A stretch of 64,000 nucleotides of DNA from Rhodospirillaceae bacterium bin65 (lineage in GTDB: Bacteria > Pseudomonadota > Alphaproteobacteria > Bin65). Location of the stretch: contig MPMX01000001.1 in assembly GCA_002238725.1 (NCBI GenBank), positions 124,001-188,000 on the forward strand, in the 5' to 3' direction. The notes beneath the pieces were generated by a model. That model worked only from the letters and a program-made list of their open reading frames with translations, had not been told where the DNA came from and ran no database searches. A program made the translations under genes and the position numbers. Numbering within the stretch: the first letter of the stretch is position 1; each line of letters opens with the position of its first letter. Of this stretch, positions 56,934-63,408 are shown piece by piece.

Positions 56934-57188
56934 GGAATAAAGTAAAATAATGGGTAAAAATATTGGAACCTGTCCAGACGTCCCGGATTGCCGCCCCTAG
57001 CCTTGCACGCCCTAGACAACAGAGGTATTTTGGCGACCCAAGGTGGTTTCTTCCGGCAGCAGGTCTCCGATTTCCCGGAGGTAAAAGGCTTCGCCGCAAT
57101 CTACCGCCCTAAACCAACACCCCGAAGGCAGCCGGTGAAGTGCCCGGCATCATCAAGCCCGGGCTCGAGTAAGCGTAGGAGTGAGGTA

Positions 57189-59045
57189 ATGAGTAACGAA
57201 GCATCAACAGAACCTGATAATACAATGTTAGATGAAATCTCTATATCAGTGGCCACTGCAAAGACTGCGGGAAAATTTCTTGCAAAAAATTCAGATCATT
57301 TAACTAATGTTGTTCGATCAATAATGCAAACCGCATCTGAAAAGATCTTGTTGCATTCGCGGCATTGCTACAAGACCTATTTGGAAAAATCAATTGAACT
57401 AAATTCAAATTGTAGGTCATTCTTTTTTAGGGCAAGTCCGGTAAATATCTATAACTTCTTTGTTTCTATGGACATAGAACATTCTTCAAATGTAAAGAAA
57501 GAAGCAAGTATAACAGACGTTCTGCAAATCAATAATCATACAGTAATACAGGCGAGCGCAGGTTACGGCAAATCAATTTTTCTCAGACATCTATTTTTGA
57601 CTTCGATAGAAACATGCAATTATGTACCGATACTATTCGATTTACGGAACATTACAGAAAATAAACGTTCTCTATTGGAATCAATGCACGATAAAATGTA
57701 TGGACATGGATTTGAACAAGATATTGCATTCTTGACTAAAGGATTAGAATTTGGTCATTTCTTGCTGCTGCTTGATGGCTTTGACGAAATTAGCCCGGAA
57801 AATAGATCAAGTGTAGCAAAGGAGTTTAATTTTTTTGCAACAAAATATAGTAAATCGCCGATTGTTGTAACTTCAAGACCGGACAATTCTTTTACATCTT
57901 GGGAAAAATTCTCTGTAGTCAAATTATCTCCATTGAGTCGGAAAACTGCTGTAGAGTTGGTACGGCGAACTCCGGAAGAAGATGAATTGAAGGATAAATT
58001 TATCCAAGATCTAGAAGAAAACCTCTTCGAAAAACATGATACCTTTTTAAGAAATCCTTTATTGTTATCGATAATGGTCCTAACATATACCAAGAGCGCC
58101 AATGTTCCTACAAAAATTTCGTTATTCTATGATAACGCCTATCACGCATTGTTTGAGGGTCACGATGCATTGAAGGGAGGATTCCAAAGACAAAGAAAAT
58201 GCCAATTGGATGTCTTGGATTTTTCAAAGATATTTGCGAGTTTTTGCATCCAAACTTACAATAAACAAGAATACTCTATCTCAAGAATCCGTGCACTAGA
58301 AGTTGCAGCGAGAGCTATAGCGGATCAAAAATTTCAAATTGAAGCGAGTGATTTTCTTGATGATTGCCTTCAATCTGTTTGTTTGTTGGTAGAAGACGGT
58401 TTGTTAATTTCTTTTTCGCACCGGTCGTTTCAAGAATATTTTGTTGCTAAATTTATTTCCAAATGCCCGGACAGCTCTAAGAAAGGTCTAATTGAGCGGG
58501 TTGACATAAATTCGAGATTTGAAAATGTGTTGCCGATTTTGTGGGAGATTGATGAATATGCATTCGAAAAACATTATCTCCTGCCTCGTGCTAAAGAATT
58601 ATTCGACAAGATTGGATTTAAATCTAAAGTAGGGCAGTATGTTTATGTTCGGTTTATGAGATTGGCATTTTCTGAAATCAGTTTACATAATTTAGAAAAA
58701 ACGGATTATTCGTTGTCTTTCCGACATCGCGAATCTTCAGATAGTAGTTGGCGATGGACAAAATTTGTGGAAGATAAATTTAAGTTAATAGAAACAATTG
58801 GTAGCTATAATGGGGACGTACGGCGGTCCATGAAGTGTTTTGTTGAAAAGGAATTTGGCCGTGAAGTAAGTTCGACAACGATGGTCACAAATGATATTCC
58901 AGCAAGATCAGAATTTTGGGTGTTGATGGGTGGGTCTAGTGTTTTTTTTGGCAAAATTTGGCTAGAAAAGATGCACGACATCTATGTAGATATTTTGAAC
59001 AAACACGATTCGAGAGATTCAGAAATTATTGATCTCATCAAGTAG
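57189..59045 (+). CDS. NACHT-domain NTPase, probable antiphage STAND protein
   Basis: A 618-residue protein, AT-rich unlike anything around it. NACHT motifs are clear: Walker A ASAGYGKS (122-129), extended Walker B FLLLLDGFDE (191-200), sensor VTSRP (227-231), and the C-terminal box FSHRSFQEYFVAKF (408-421). Residues 1-115 are a helical N-domain with SFFFRASPVNIYNFFVSMDIE, cut here to VNIYNFFV, as found in other short bacterial NACHT proteins. Residues 430-618 are a sensor region with no visible repeats. ATG 57189 has GGAGTGAGG upstream. By family it should sense phage and trigger a suicide response. Confidence 0.85.
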   Translation: MSNEASTEPDNTMLDEISISVATAKTAGKFLAKNSDHLTNVVRSIMQTASEKILLHSRHCYKTYLEKSIELNSNCRSFFFRASPVNIYNFFVSMDIEHSSNVKKEASITDVLQINNHTVIQASAGYGKSIFLRHLFLTSIETCNYVPILFDLRNITENKRSLLESMHDKMYGHGFEQDIAFLTKGLEFGHFLLLLDGFDEISPENRSSVAKEFNFFATKYSKSPIVVTSRPDNSFTSWEKFSVVKLSPLSRKTAVELVRRTPEEDELKDKFIQDLEENLFEKHDTFLRNPLLLSIMVLTYTKSANVPTKISLFYDNAYHALFEGHDALKGGFQRQRKCQLDVLDFSKIFASFCIQTYNKQEYSISRIRALEVAARAIADQKFQIEASDFLDDCLQSVCLLVEDGLLISFSHRSFQEYFVAKFISKCPDSSKKGLIERVDINSRFENVLPILWEIDEYAFEKHYLLPRAKELFDKIGFKSKVGQYVYVRFMRLAFSEISLHNLEKTDYSLSFRHRESSDSSWRWTKFVEDKFKLIETIGSYNGDVRRSMKCFVEKEFGREVSSTTMVTNDIPARSEFWVLMGGSSVFFGKIWLEKMHDIYVDILNKHDSRDSEIIDLIK

Positions 59046-59156: not shown

Positions 59157-59894
59157 TTACCTCATATTTTTCTTTAGCCTGACCCGCACAATCCCCACGA
59201 AATTCTCGTACAGGATCCGCGCATCGCGGTTGAAGCCGGGCATGTTGCGGGCGGTCTCCGCGGCGAAGGGGGCGAGGCTGCCGGGGCCGAGGGTGTTTTC
59301 CAGCGAAGCGGCATAGGCCGGCACTTCGCCCCATTCGTCGACCGTCGTCGGCGTCTGCTCGACATGATACTGGATGCCCCAGGCGGTGCGCCCGACCCGG
59401 AAGGACTGGATCGCGCAGACCGGCGACGAGGCCAGGGTGACGCCGCCCTCGGGCAGCGCCGTCACCGCGCAGCCGTGCCATTGCAGGCAGGTCACCCGGT
59501 CGTCCAGCCCGGCGAGCAGCGGATCGGCGCGGCCGGCCTCGGTGAGGTCGACCGTGAGCACGCCGACCTCGGCCTCGGCCATGCGCTCGACCCGGCCGCC
59601 GAGCGCATCGGCGAGCATCTGGTGGCCGAGGCACACGCCGAGGAACGGCATGTTTCGCGCGCGCACCGCCTCGCGGATCGCCGCCTTCTCGTCGGCCAGC
59701 CAGGGGAATTCGTCCTCGTCGAACACGTCCATCGGCCCGCCCATGGAGATCACCGCGTCGTAATCGCCGAGCGGCGGGATCGCCTCGCCCTCGTCGAGCT
59801 CGACCGCGTCCCATTCGATCCCGTCTTCGCGCATGAAGTCGCGGAACACGCCGGGATGCTCGATCTCGATATGCTGGAGGACGAGGAATTTCAT
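59157..59894 (-). CDS. Class I glutamine amidotransferase (GMP synthase-like)
   Basis: A 245-residue stand-alone GATase domain. The triad is C88 (FLGVCLGHQ), H177 and E179 (GIQYHVEQT). The domain opening KFLVLQHIEIEHPGVFRDFM and VISMGGPMDVFDED are typical of COG0518-type proteins, which hydrolyse glutamine or gamma-glutamyl compounds. ATG 59894 is taken over a longer frame that has no family features. Its last codons (RVRLKKNMR) run into the AT-rich island, so the island may have replaced the original 3' end. Confidence 0.88.
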   Translation of the reverse strand: MKFLVLQHIEIEHPGVFRDFMREDGIEWDAVELDEGEAIPPLGDYDAVISMGGPMDVFDEDEFPWLADEKAAIREAVRARNMPFLGVCLGHQMLADALGGRVERMAEAEVGVLTVDLTEAGRADPLLAGLDDRVTCLQWHGCAVTALPEGGVTLASSPVCAIQSFRVGRTAWGIQYHVEQTPTTVDEWGEVPAYAASLENTLGPGSLAPFAAETARNMPGFNRDARILYENFVGIVRVRLKKNMR

Positions 59895-60026: not shown

Positions 60027-60055
60027 TTGACAACGATACGAACATATCGTGTACA
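60027..60055 (+). promoter_or_regulatory. Promoter with embedded inverted repeat ahead of the four-paralogue operon
   Basis: TTGACA (60027-60032) and TGTACA (60050-60055) are 17 bases apart. The spacer is filled by a perfect inverted repeat, ACGATA (60033-60038) and TATCGT (60045-60050), with a 6-base centre. A repressor bound there would block RNA polymerase. The leader to the first start is about 85 bases. Confidence 0.55.
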
Positions 60056-60146
60056 TGGATCGTTGCTTCGCGACTGTTACCACGGGCAGGCGGCTGGCGG
60101 GGCCCGGGCTTAGGCCCAACCGTCCTCAACCGACCGGAGCTGCCCG

Positions 60147-60773
60147 ATGACAGGCCGCGACCCTTCCGGCCATCCGCAACCGCCGGAACGCGCCCAGGCG
60201 CTGATCGCCGGATTTCTGAACCGTCACAGGCAGATTGTCTCCGCCTTCGTCCTGGCGAAGCACTCGGCAACGGGCGCCGATGCCGGCGGCCCGGATGCCG
60301 CCCCGGACGGTTCCGCCGCGCAGGCGGCGGCCCGGCTCGGCGACTATCCCGTCTATGCGGTGCATCTCGCCAACCGCGCGAGCGGCCTGTGTGCGGCCGT
60401 GCTGCCGGACCCGGTGGACGATGACGCCTTGTTCGGTATCGTCTGCGAATCGCTCGCCGAGGGCCTGGGGCTCGCGCCGCGGGAAGCAGCCGAACTGACG
60501 GTGAAGATTCTGCTGCAGACGCCGCATAACACGGACGGCAGCGAACTCGACGAAACGCAGATCCGGTCGCTCTCGAAAGACGAATTGCGCTGGATACTGA
60601 TCGCGGAAACCGCCCAGCGGGACGCCGAGGCCGTGCGGGACGCCTTCGAGAGCGGCGCGGAGGCCGCCGACCGGCCGGACCACGACATCGAACCGCTCGC
60701 CGCCCTCCTGGACCTCCCGGTGCATCCGGCGTCTGACGAGCCGGAGGCCGCTGCGCCGACCGGGCCGGAATAG
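60147..60773 (+). CDS. Paralogue 1 of a four-gene array of unknown function
   Basis: A 208-residue acidic, soluble protein; I do not recognise the family. It shares with its neighbours the pattern RA-x-ALxxxFLxxH near the N-terminus (ERAQALIAGFLNRH), Y-x-x-YAVxLA in the middle (YPVYAVHLA), G-L-G-x-x-P-x-x-A (EGLGLAPREAAEL), and the C-terminal box DHDIEPLAALL. It lacks the MLGRLF-type start of the others and begins with a proline-rich stretch instead. GGAG precedes ATG 60147. It is the first gene after the promoter at 60027 and ends eight bases before paralogue 2. Confidence 0.8.
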   Translation: MTGRDPSGHPQPPERAQALIAGFLNRHRQIVSAFVLAKHSATGADAGGPDAAPDGSAAQAAARLGDYPVYAVHLANRASGLCAAVLPDPVDDDALFGIVCESLAEGLGLAPREAAELTVKILLQTPHNTDGSELDETQIRSLSKDELRWILIAETAQRDAEAVRDAFESGAEAADRPDHDIEPLAALLDLPVHPASDEPEAAAPTGPE

Positions 60774-60781
60774 CGGCCGCC

Positions 60782-61381
60782 ATGTTCGGCCGTTTGTTCA
60801 GAAAGAAGACCTACACCCGCGATCGCGCCCGGGCGCTGACCGCGCAATTCCTGAGGCAGCACATGGCCGCGAGCGCGGCCCGCATCCATGCTTGGGATTT
60901 GCCTGAGCATTTCGACGAGAATGACGCCGGGCGGGCGCCCGACGGTTCAGGCCCGGACACACAAACCGCTGCGGACCGCTATATCGCCTACGCCGTCTTT
61001 CTTGCGATCCACGTCTACGGCCAGTGCTCGCCGCTCCTGCCGCAGACCGGGGACGAGGACGAAGGCATAAGTTTTGCCGGCACTGTGCTGATGGGCGGGT
61101 TGGGGGTCGGTCCGGAGGTTGCGCGGGACCTTTTTTTCAGTGTCCTCGGCAAATTGCCCCGGACCGATGACGGCCAGCGCTTGAACCTGGGCGAAATCGA
61201 AGGGCTCCCGGACGCCGAACGCCGATCGGTTATGCTCTGGGAAATCGCCGCCGAGGACGCCGCGGTCGCGGTGCGGGCCTTCGCCGAAGGCCGCACGAGC
61301 ATCGATCTTTCGGACCACGATTTCGAACCGCTCGCCCAATGGCTGGAGTATCCGGTCGGAACCGACGGTGAGCGATCCTGA
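60782..61381 (+). CDS. Paralogue 2 of the four-gene array
   Basis: A 199-residue protein of the same unknown family. It begins MFGRLFRKKTYTRDRARALTAQFLRQH, whose first nine residues (MFGRLFRKK) are basic and amphipathic and recur in paralogues 3 and 4. Middle marks are YIAYAVFLA and GGLGVGPEVARDLF; the C-terminal box is DHDFEPLAQWL. No signal peptide or membrane segment. The ribosome site is weak, so its translation may be coupled to paralogue 1, eight bases upstream. Confidence 0.8.
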   Translation: MFGRLFRKKTYTRDRARALTAQFLRQHMAASAARIHAWDLPEHFDENDAGRAPDGSGPDTQTAADRYIAYAVFLAIHVYGQCSPLLPQTGDEDEGISFAGTVLMGGLGVGPEVARDLFFSVLGKLPRTDDGQRLNLGEIEGLPDAERRSVMLWEIAAEDAAVAVRAFAEGRTSIDLSDHDFEPLAQWLEYPVGTDGERS

Positions 61382-61446
61382 CCCGCCCCCGGCCGAAACC
61401 GCACGGCTGAGCGGATCGCGCGCCGCAAGACCAAGGAGGCAGCCCC

Positions 61447-62034
61447 ATGCTGGGAAAACTGTTCGGCAGGAAGCGCCGCGAAGAGACCGAAGACGACCCC
61501 GAGCAGCTGGTCTTGCGGGCGGTCATCGGCTTCCTGGAGGTCCACCGGAAAAAAATGGCCGCGCAGACCGCCGCGTCGGCCATGGCCGAGCGATACGCGG
61601 AACACGGCAAGGAGGCCGCGTTCGAAATACTGGGCGAAGACAGGAGCGTGGTCTTCGACCGCGAATACTATTTCTATGCTTCCAAGGTTGCCATCCTGGC
61701 CTGTGTAAAAGCGCTCGACGACCTGGACGCGGAGCATCTCGCCAATCTTTCGCTGTCCTGCCTCGTCCACGCCTTCGGTTTCGAACCCGAAACGGCGGGC
61801 GACCTGGTGCTGGAGTCGATGACCAGGTTCCCCTACGGCGACGGAGACGAGCCGAGCGGCGACGCCTATGAAGCGCTGGACGACGGTCAGAAGAAGCTCG
61901 CCGACCTGAGCAGCGCGGCTTCGGCGGCGGCGTCCATGCTGGTCGCCGGTCTTCCGGCAACTGCCGACCGGATCGAGATCGATAGCAGCCTCGTCGACCC
62001 GGTTGCCGAACGCCTGGAAATGCGCGTCGAATGA
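61447..62034 (+). CDS. Paralogue 3 of the four-gene array (most divergent)
   Basis: A 195-residue protein. The MLGKLFGRK start and FGFEPETAGDLVLESMTRFPYGDGD keep the family pattern, with the P-E-x-A element shared with paralogues 2 and 4. YYFYASKVA replaces YxxYAVxLA, and the C-terminal box is worn down to SSLVDPVAERLEM. The segment after about residue 145 is alanine-rich (DLSSAASAAASML). It has its own good ribosome site (AAGGAGG) and a 65-base gap before it, so it may be made in a different amount. Confidence 0.78.
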   Translation: MLGKLFGRKRREETEDDPEQLVLRAVIGFLEVHRKKMAAQTAASAMAERYAEHGKEAAFEILGEDRSVVFDREYYFYASKVAILACVKALDDLDAEHLANLSLSCLVHAFGFEPETAGDLVLESMTRFPYGDGDEPSGDAYEALDDGQKKLADLSSAASAAASMLVAGLPATADRIEIDSSLVDPVAERLEMRVE

Positions 62035-62097
62035 CCGGCCGGGCAACCGGTTGCAGGCGGCAACGCGGCATCCATCGCATTTGACGGGAGTCGCCCC

Positions 62098-62730
62098 ATG
62101 CTCGGCCGCCTGTTCAAGAGAAATCCCTATACCCACAAGCGCGCGGAGGCTTTGACCGTCGACTTCCTCAAGAAGCACAAGGAGCGCGTCTCCGGCGAGG
62201 TCTTCGCGCGTCGTCTGATCGCCAATATCGAGGCAGGCGGCGAGGATGGGGCGCTCGTCGGGTTCGGGCCCCACGCCCAGGCCCAGATCGGATACTACCC
62301 CAATTACGCGGTCCATCTGGCACGATATGCGCTGGTCTATTGTACGTCCCTGATGGCGGAGCCGCCCGACCCGGACAATGGTCTTGTCCATACGGGGATG
62401 GCGGTCTGGCAGGGCCTCGGCACCGACCCGGAAACCGCCGGCGAAATGGTGATGCAGACGCTGGAGAACATGCCGCGCAAGGAGGACGGCAGCGAATTCC
62501 GCGGCGACGAGGTCGCCGTCCTGCTCGAAGACGAGCGCCGCCTGGTCCTCATCGAGGAGTTCGCCCGGAAAGATGCGCAAATCGTGCTCGAAGCCTTCGG
62601 CAGAGGCGACAAGACCGTCGATCTATTGGACCACGACGTCGAACCCTTGGCGGAACTGCTCGACCTGACCTTTGTCCCCGACCCCGACCATGAACGGCTG
62701 GCGGCGCGTCTCAAGCCTGTGCAAGAGTGA
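62098..62730 (+). CDS. Paralogue 4 of the four-gene array
   Basis: A 210-residue protein. MLGRLFKRNPYTHKRAEALTVDFLKKH, cut to MLGRLFKRNPYTHKRAEAL, shows the common start most clearly. Then YYPNYAVHLARYA, GLGTDPETAGEMVMQTLENMP, ERRLVLIEEFARKDAQIVLEAFGRG, in short ARKDAQIVLEAFGRG, and the box DHDVEPLAELL. GGGAG precedes ATG 62098. Closest in pattern to paralogue 2. A glutathione transferase gene follows 45 bases later in the same direction, but may have its own signals. Confidence 0.8.
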   Translation: MLGRLFKRNPYTHKRAEALTVDFLKKHKERVSGEVFARRLIANIEAGGEDGALVGFGPHAQAQIGYYPNYAVHLARYALVYCTSLMAEPPDPDNGLVHTGMAVWQGLGTDPETAGEMVMQTLENMPRKEDGSEFRGDEVAVLLEDERRLVLIEEFARKDAQIVLEAFGRGDKTVDLLDHDVEPLAELLDLTFVPDPDHERLAARLKPVQE

Positions 62731-62775: not shown

Positions 62776-63408
62776 ATGTCCACTCCCGTCACCTTCTACA
62801 CCAACCCGATGTCGCGCGGGCAGATCGTGCGCTGGGCGCTGGAAGAATCCGGAGCCGCCTATGAGGCCGTCATCCTGGAATATGGCGGCGACATGAAGGC
62901 GCCGGACTTTCTGGCGATCAACCCGATGGGCAAGGTTCCGGCGATCCGGCACGACGGCCGGGTCGTGACCGAGTGCGCCGCCATCTGCGCCTATCTGGCC
63001 GAGGCGTTTCCCGAAGCCGGGCTGGGGCCGGGCGCGGACGAGCGCGCCGCCTACTACCGCTGGATGTTCTTCGCCGCCGGGCCGCTCGAGCAGGCGATAA
63101 TGGCACAGGCCCTGGGCTGGACGACGGAAGAGGACAAGAGCGCGATGCTCGGCTTCGGCAGCTACGACGATACGGTCGGCGCCGCCGAATTGCTGCTGAA
63201 CGAAGGCGATTATGTCTGCGGCGGGCGCTTTACCATGGCGGATGTCTATGTCGGCAGCCATATCGAGTGGGGCCTCGGCTACGGCACCTTGCCGAAGCGC
63301 CCGGCGTTCGAGTCTTATGCCGAACGCCTCACGGCGCGCGAAGCCCACAAGCGCGCCCGGGCGATCGATAAAGCCCTGATCGCCGAGCGGAAGACGGCGG
63401 CCTCCTGA
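62776..63408 (+). CDS. Glutathione S-transferase family protein
   Basis: A 210-residue cytosolic protein. The thioredoxin-like N-domain is TFYTNPMSRGQIVRWALEES, with S-R-G at the catalytic-residue region; the cis-proline loop is GKVPAIRHDG, and T-E-C-A-A-I binds the glutathione gamma-glutamyl group. The C-terminal helical domain has FTMADVYVGSHIEWGLGYG, the N-capping motif region of GSTs. ATG 62776 follows GAGG. Function is probably detoxification or thiol transfer; the link to the paralogue array is positional only. Confidence 0.9.
   Translation: MSTPVTFYTNPMSRGQIVRWALEESGAAYEAVILEYGGDMKAPDFLAINPMGKVPAIRHDGRVVTECAAICAYLAEAFPEAGLGPGADERAAYYRWMFFAAGPLEQAIMAQALGWTTEEDKSAMLGFGSYDDTVGAAELLLNEGDYVCGGRFTMADVYVGSHIEWGLGYGTLPKRPAFESYAERLTAREAHKRARAIDKALIAERKTAAS

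Follow-up and report, generated by a model that had tools for sequence, protein, structure and literature searches.

Four consecutive genes in a Rhodospirillaceae bacterium (c1 to c4, Table 1) very probably represent an old tandem array of lineage-restricted proteins at a fixed chromosomal site. In this evolutionary account, drawn from sequence comparison, c1 is the core member, while c2 to c4 are accessory copies; recombination among the copies and across species has removed some, turned others into chimeras and probably exchanged others. When it is combined with the proposal that the copies are individually acting specificity variants, the whole statement falls a little short of an even chance. 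Positions refer to the window, the whole stretch of 64,000 nucleotides that was analysed.

Four divergent paralogues in tandem

A preliminary description of this DNA had proposed that the four genes are tandem paralogues built on a common motif plan. The paralogy is real. Used as a query against its own genome, c4 recovers c1 (E 6.7e-37), c2 (E 2.0e-33) and c3 (E 4.4e-8), and this search found no fifth copy. The shared motifs are also far better than chance, as all six pairings score above each of 300 residue shuffles, with z values for the pairwise scores ranging from 7.7 (c1–c3, the weakest pair) to 62.8. The genes lie on one strand throughout, are separated by gaps of 8–65 bases, and encode proteins that share 22–39% identity.

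The proposed motif plan can be followed through the alignment of the copies. Positions G3, L19, F23-L24, H27, Y67, Y70-A71, A75 and G108 are invariant across all four, as are P111, A114, P126, D130-G131 and parts of the C-terminal P.A..L box. As described, this box is worn in c3 and the usual start is replaced in c1, whose N-terminus (MTGR) is kept in c1 orthologues. All four proteins are acidic (pI 4.5–5.0). No membrane-spanning hydrophobic stretch was found in any of them (highest 19-residue mean 0.78–1.44), in agreement with the expectation that they are soluble and free of membrane helices.

Table 1. Features of the array and its immediate surroundings (window coordinates).
Feature	Position	Strand	Remarks
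Class-I glutamine amidotransferase (GATase)	59157..59894	-	Pfam GATase, 1e-21; constant divergent neighbour, kept in five relatives
Conserved upstream element TTGACA..G....GAAC.TATC.TGTAC	60028..60055	+	Putative promoter region; core kept in six genomes
Untranslated leader of c1	60062..60146	+	Long invariant stretches in six genomes
c1	60147-60773	+	208 aa
c2	60782-61381	+	199 aa
c3	61447-62034	+	195 aa; most divergent of the four copies
c4	62098-62730	+	210 aa
Glutathione S-transferase (GST)	62776..63408	+	Pfam GST_N_2, 2.4e-15; same place in five relatives

Family identity and predicted fold

The suggestion that this family had not been recognised before, and belongs to no described system, was borne out by profile and PDB sequence searches. 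A family match was taken as a hit above the curated cut-off, or with E < 0.001, in more than one copy, and no credible match of this kind was found for c1 to c4 among Pfam, NCBIfam, PADLOC and PHROGs profiles or PDB sequences. All hits obtained were at chance level, and an LPXTG_anchor hit was rejected as spurious (E 0.0072, 24 residues in the middle of the protein, c2 alone).

AlphaFold2 models were obtained for c4 (pLDDT 82.2, pTM 0.79) and c3 (pLDDT 84.5, pTM 0.81). Both are all-helical and have an identical order of elements despite the divergence of c3. A helix of about 35 residues is followed by a short one, three of 13–18 residues, another short one, a long one of 22–26 residues and a short last helix. 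Confidence is low in both models for the N-terminal 7–13 residues, which include the basic start. Helical folds match poorly and unspecifically, and neither solved nor viral structures rise above the helical-protein background for either model. For c4 and c3, the best Foldseek E was 1.1–1.2 and the best VIA Z was 3.9 (rmsd 5.7, 120 aligned) and 4.0 (rmsd 4.5, 99 aligned). The Rap2a immunity protein, listed with helical proteins that are unrelated to one another, scored Z 3.3 and was given no weight as evidence. Because all-helical models match in this way, no claim of a new fold is made. Judged by their sequences, c1 to c4 constitute an undescribed family whose members are small, acidic and soluble and are predicted to share a helical fold.

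Distribution and genomic context

Six of the seven genus genomes, the present one among them, have members of the family, and a divergent single copy occurs in a sister genus (G007). Apart from this copy, no match covering the protein was found outside the genus in a draw of 385 genomes from the class and 398 from the phylum, and viral contigs, phages and plasmids likewise held no protein-covering relatives. Short scattered matches in the wider genomes (E 2.5e-4 to 4e-3) fall within other long frames and were judged to be chance. Close relatives that could be named, found by a single-protein scan, are Rhodospirillaceae metagenome-assembled genomes (MAGs) from marine-sponge metagenomes, one of which takes its name from the sponge Spongia. 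The genomes compared are drafts in many contigs.

The surroundings of the array are stable. Among the member-bearing genomes of the genus, gene order is fixed: methylmalonyl-CoA mutase (MCM), a variable stretch, the amidotransferase gene on the opposite strand, the array, the GST gene and ParE, with the array of one genome (G001) spanning two contigs. The GST gene begins about 40–97 bases past the last copy and, from the gap sizes, is possibly co-transcribed with the array. The lone copy of G007 likewise follows closely behind the mutase gene and shares its strand, a position that suggests an ancestral site and vertical inheritance. A survey of tandem arrangement and neighbours, as the preliminary description had suggested, gave a divided answer: the neighbours are constant, but the tandem state is not, with one, two or four copies present.

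The variable stretch itself carries other genes. Here, the mutase and amidotransferase genes are separated by a gene for a NACHT NTPase that ends in a SNaCT13 domain (56988-59045, + strand; Pfam 4.2e-9 and 3.7e-12), an arrangement confined to this genome among those compared. Its G+C content is 36–43%, against about 60–74% around it, and it is likely a horizontally acquired defence gene. In G002, the same gap holds a different open frame (L028:1689-3410, +) with Sel1-like and peptidoglycan-binding-like segments that fall below Pfam cut-offs. Insertions seem to recur at this gap, as at a hot spot.

Copy number, a chimera and probable remnants

Across the seven genus genomes, copy number runs 4, 4, 2 (with a further copy that is broken), 1, 1, 1 and 0. 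Four copies occur in this genome (G000) and in G005, while G001 has c1, c2 and a split c4 but lacks c3. Three genomes (G002, G003 and G004) have a single copy each and G006 has none. Either c1 or a c1/c4 chimera that is mostly c1 is kept in every array-bearing genome of the genus, with c1 alone in G002 and G004. Orthologues of c2 are found in G001 and G005, that of c3 in G005 only, and c4 is intact in G005 and split in G001.

The clearest trace of change is the single gene of G003. It matches G001 c1 up to the GAGCCGCTCGCCGGCCTGCTGGACCTC box (PLAGLLDL) and c4 thereafter; past the box it follows G001 c4 nearly letter for letter, GST spacer included. On these matches, the gene is the product of a deletion by c1/c4 recombination, and its junction falls precisely within the conserved C-terminal box. 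In G002 and G004, the stretch before the GST gene resembles the last 30–40 bases of c4, a score reached by 1–7 of 1000 shuffles, and the tails of c1 to c3 score below that of c4 against it. This stretch is probably a 3' remnant of c4, a weaker case than the G003 scar.

The broken copy in G001 was observed separately. The first half of its c4 runs into unrelated sequence on one contig, and on a second contig Sel1 repeats are fused in frame to the front of the other half (L025:8643-10667 and L024:7393-8076, both on the minus strand). The gene is interrupted near codon 88–93, as if by a large insertion, a rearrangement or an assembly error.

In the tree, c1 and c2 of G001 group with c1 and c2 of the present genome, by position rather than by genome. 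The duplications are therefore not recent, and the earlier proposal of local duplication followed by divergence is upheld. Because of the chimera, the probable remnants and a tree ordered by position, the array is best read as ancestral and the single-copy loci as collapsed.

Probable block exchange and evolutionary rate

A comparison of this genome with G005 in 150-base steps gave 97–100% identity over 60751-62700, against 79–91% in c1 and mostly 85–97% in flanking gene sequence. The c2–c4 segment thus forms a block of ~2 kb that is about 99% identical between the two. Synonymous divergence follows the same pattern, with dS of 0.04, 0 and 0.007 in c2, c3 and c4, and 0.19–0.32 in c1 and the GATase, GST and ParE genes. 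This suggests that c2 to c4 were recently exchanged between species by homologous recombination. Alternatively, chimeric MAG assembly could have produced both the 99% block and the break in G001; coverage of the G005 contig is 5-fold, and a chimeric contig could also explain the block.

Orthologue dN/dS was 0.39–0.62 for c1, compared with 0.07–0.20 for the GATase gene, 0.09–0.13 for MCM and 0.11–0.31 for GST. By these estimates, c1 is constrained, yet is evolving faster than the neighbouring genes. A dN/dS of about 0.4 may signal weak constraint rather than diversifying selection.

Upstream element and leader

The region ahead of c1 had been described as a repressible promoter, with TTGACA and a perfect inverted repeat. 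Both elements are present: TTGACA occupies 60028-60033, 113 bases 5' of the c1 start codon, and the repeat ACGATA-N6-TATCGT lies inside the conserved upstream element. TTGACA and the GAAC.TATC.TGTAC core behind it are shared by six genomes, as is the leader. A promoter at this place is likely, even though a consensus scan accepts no sigma-70 pair, leaving TTGACA with no accepted -10. The claim of repression did not hold up. In the alignment, the repeat arms pair at 6/6 positions here, at 4/6 in four relatives and at 2/6 in G003, and perfect 6-bp repeats with 3–10-base loops are common in the window (4.75 per kb). Genome-wide, there is no second site at up to two mismatches and one chance-like site with three. 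An operator is unsupported, as the repeat is neither conserved nor rarer than chance and the genome has no second close site.

Other roles were considered for the leader. A leader peptide was rejected because the reading frames of this region differ between genomes. A riboswitch was also set aside, with no Rfam family and one compensatory pair only; the folding energy is not better than that of shuffles (z -0.36). A stem is predicted in which CGGGCAG pairs with CUGCCCG directly before the c1 start codon.

Comparison with known systems

The nearest described behaviour is that of the EsaG/TipC arrays associated with type VII secretion in Firmicutes, in which small paralogues, no two identical, stand in a row (Garrett et al. 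2022, PMC9484751). These toxin-immunity genes of the secretion locus reach up to 12 copies, and homologous recombination at conserved internal blocks leads to their loss, expansion and mosaicism (PMC9484751). By analogy, c1 to c4 are tandem non-identical paralogues that appear to be altered by recombination at a conserved block, as seen in the G003 chimera and in copy number. Unlike EsaG/TipC, they have no adjacent toxin gene, the copies are old, and their sequence and predicted fold have no recognised relationship to those proteins; membership is not claimed. The family also resembles orphan gene families generally, being confined to one small taxon, evolving fast and lacking a domain match. 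It differs from them in its stable core site, conserved leader, four tandem copies and traceable scars of collapse.

Possible functions

The recombination pattern favours individually acting specificity variants, a reading that is possible but tentative. Each protein would act alone or as a homo-oligomer, and those parts of its helical scaffold that change fast would make contact with a partner. The copies would differ in the partner bound, so that the repertoire could grow or shrink without breaking the system. The likeliest forms would be an immunity- or antitoxin-like neutraliser, or a client-binding adaptor that works with the co-directional GST. No toxin or other partner was identified, and the conserved neighbours are MCM, GATase, GST and ParE.

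Singly acting variants are favoured over an obligate four-subunit complex because copy number is 4, 2, 1 or 0. The preliminary description had raised the possibility that the copies are distinct subunits of one hetero-oligomeric complex, and the closely spaced genes on the same strand, the fold predicted for both c3 and c4, and the apparent movement of c2 to c4 as one block between G000 and G005 would all suit it. However, three genomes have one copy, G001 has two intact copies and G006 has none. An obligate 1:1:1:1 assembly is disfavoured by this distribution, as its subunits are not always together and c1 or the c1/c4 chimera stands alone in three genomes, and a hetero-oligomer is decidedly improbable. 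It is unlikely, too, that these are simply orphan genes under weak constraint, whose function is dispensable and whose duplicates drift. A dN/dS of around 0.4–0.6, repeated copy loss, the broken G001 copy and the absence from G006 are what drift would produce, but the frame, start and leader of c1 are kept in six genomes, the common fold is predicted with confidence, and dN/dS stays below 1 where orthologue dS is usable.

The remaining explanations assign the copies a partner. One possibility, though a rather unlikely one, is that they are stress or detoxification accessory proteins of the GST (client-binding or regulatory partners), with copies adjusting dosage. The GST gene lies directly downstream in all six member-bearing genomes of the genus, but it encodes a general enzyme, neighbourhood alone is a weak indication, the gaps merely suggest co-transcription, and 22–39% identity is more divergence than dosage requires. 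Another explanation is an orphan immunity (poly-immunity) array, in which each copy would neutralise a different competitor-toxin variant. Fast evolution and the probable c2–c4 exchange are consistent with this, but the neighbours are metabolic or housekeeping in type, except for the NACHT gene found only here, and no known immunity family is matched. The T6SS sheath gene VipB (PF05943) was found in 0/7 genus genomes, with a positive E. coli control. Typical immunity clusters are mobile, unlike the site of c1, and the retention of c1 at a fixed core site speaks against an immunity-like reading. In its style of change, with recombination at conserved blocks, the array may still be likened to EsaG/TipC (PMC9484751). 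A poly-immunity array is improbable on balance, and an immunity role in particular has a low probability.

Significance

This work defines an undescribed family that is modelled confidently as helical and shows a natural series of 4, 2, 1 and 0 copies at one locus within one genus. In its boldest form, which is improbable, the finding would mean that a sponge-associated lineage of Alphaproteobacteria has a specificity repertoire of a new class, one that recombines. The core c1 and an exchangeable c2–c4 cassette would supply helical binders that recognise varied partners or defend against them, such as competitor toxins, phage or host factors, and recombination in the C-terminal box would tune the size of the set. 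Until a function is assigned, the wider weight of the family is modest. Nevertheless, the clear recombination chimera and the copy series make it testable why extra copies are kept or collapsed, and the role of such lineage-restricted proteins becomes testable likewise.
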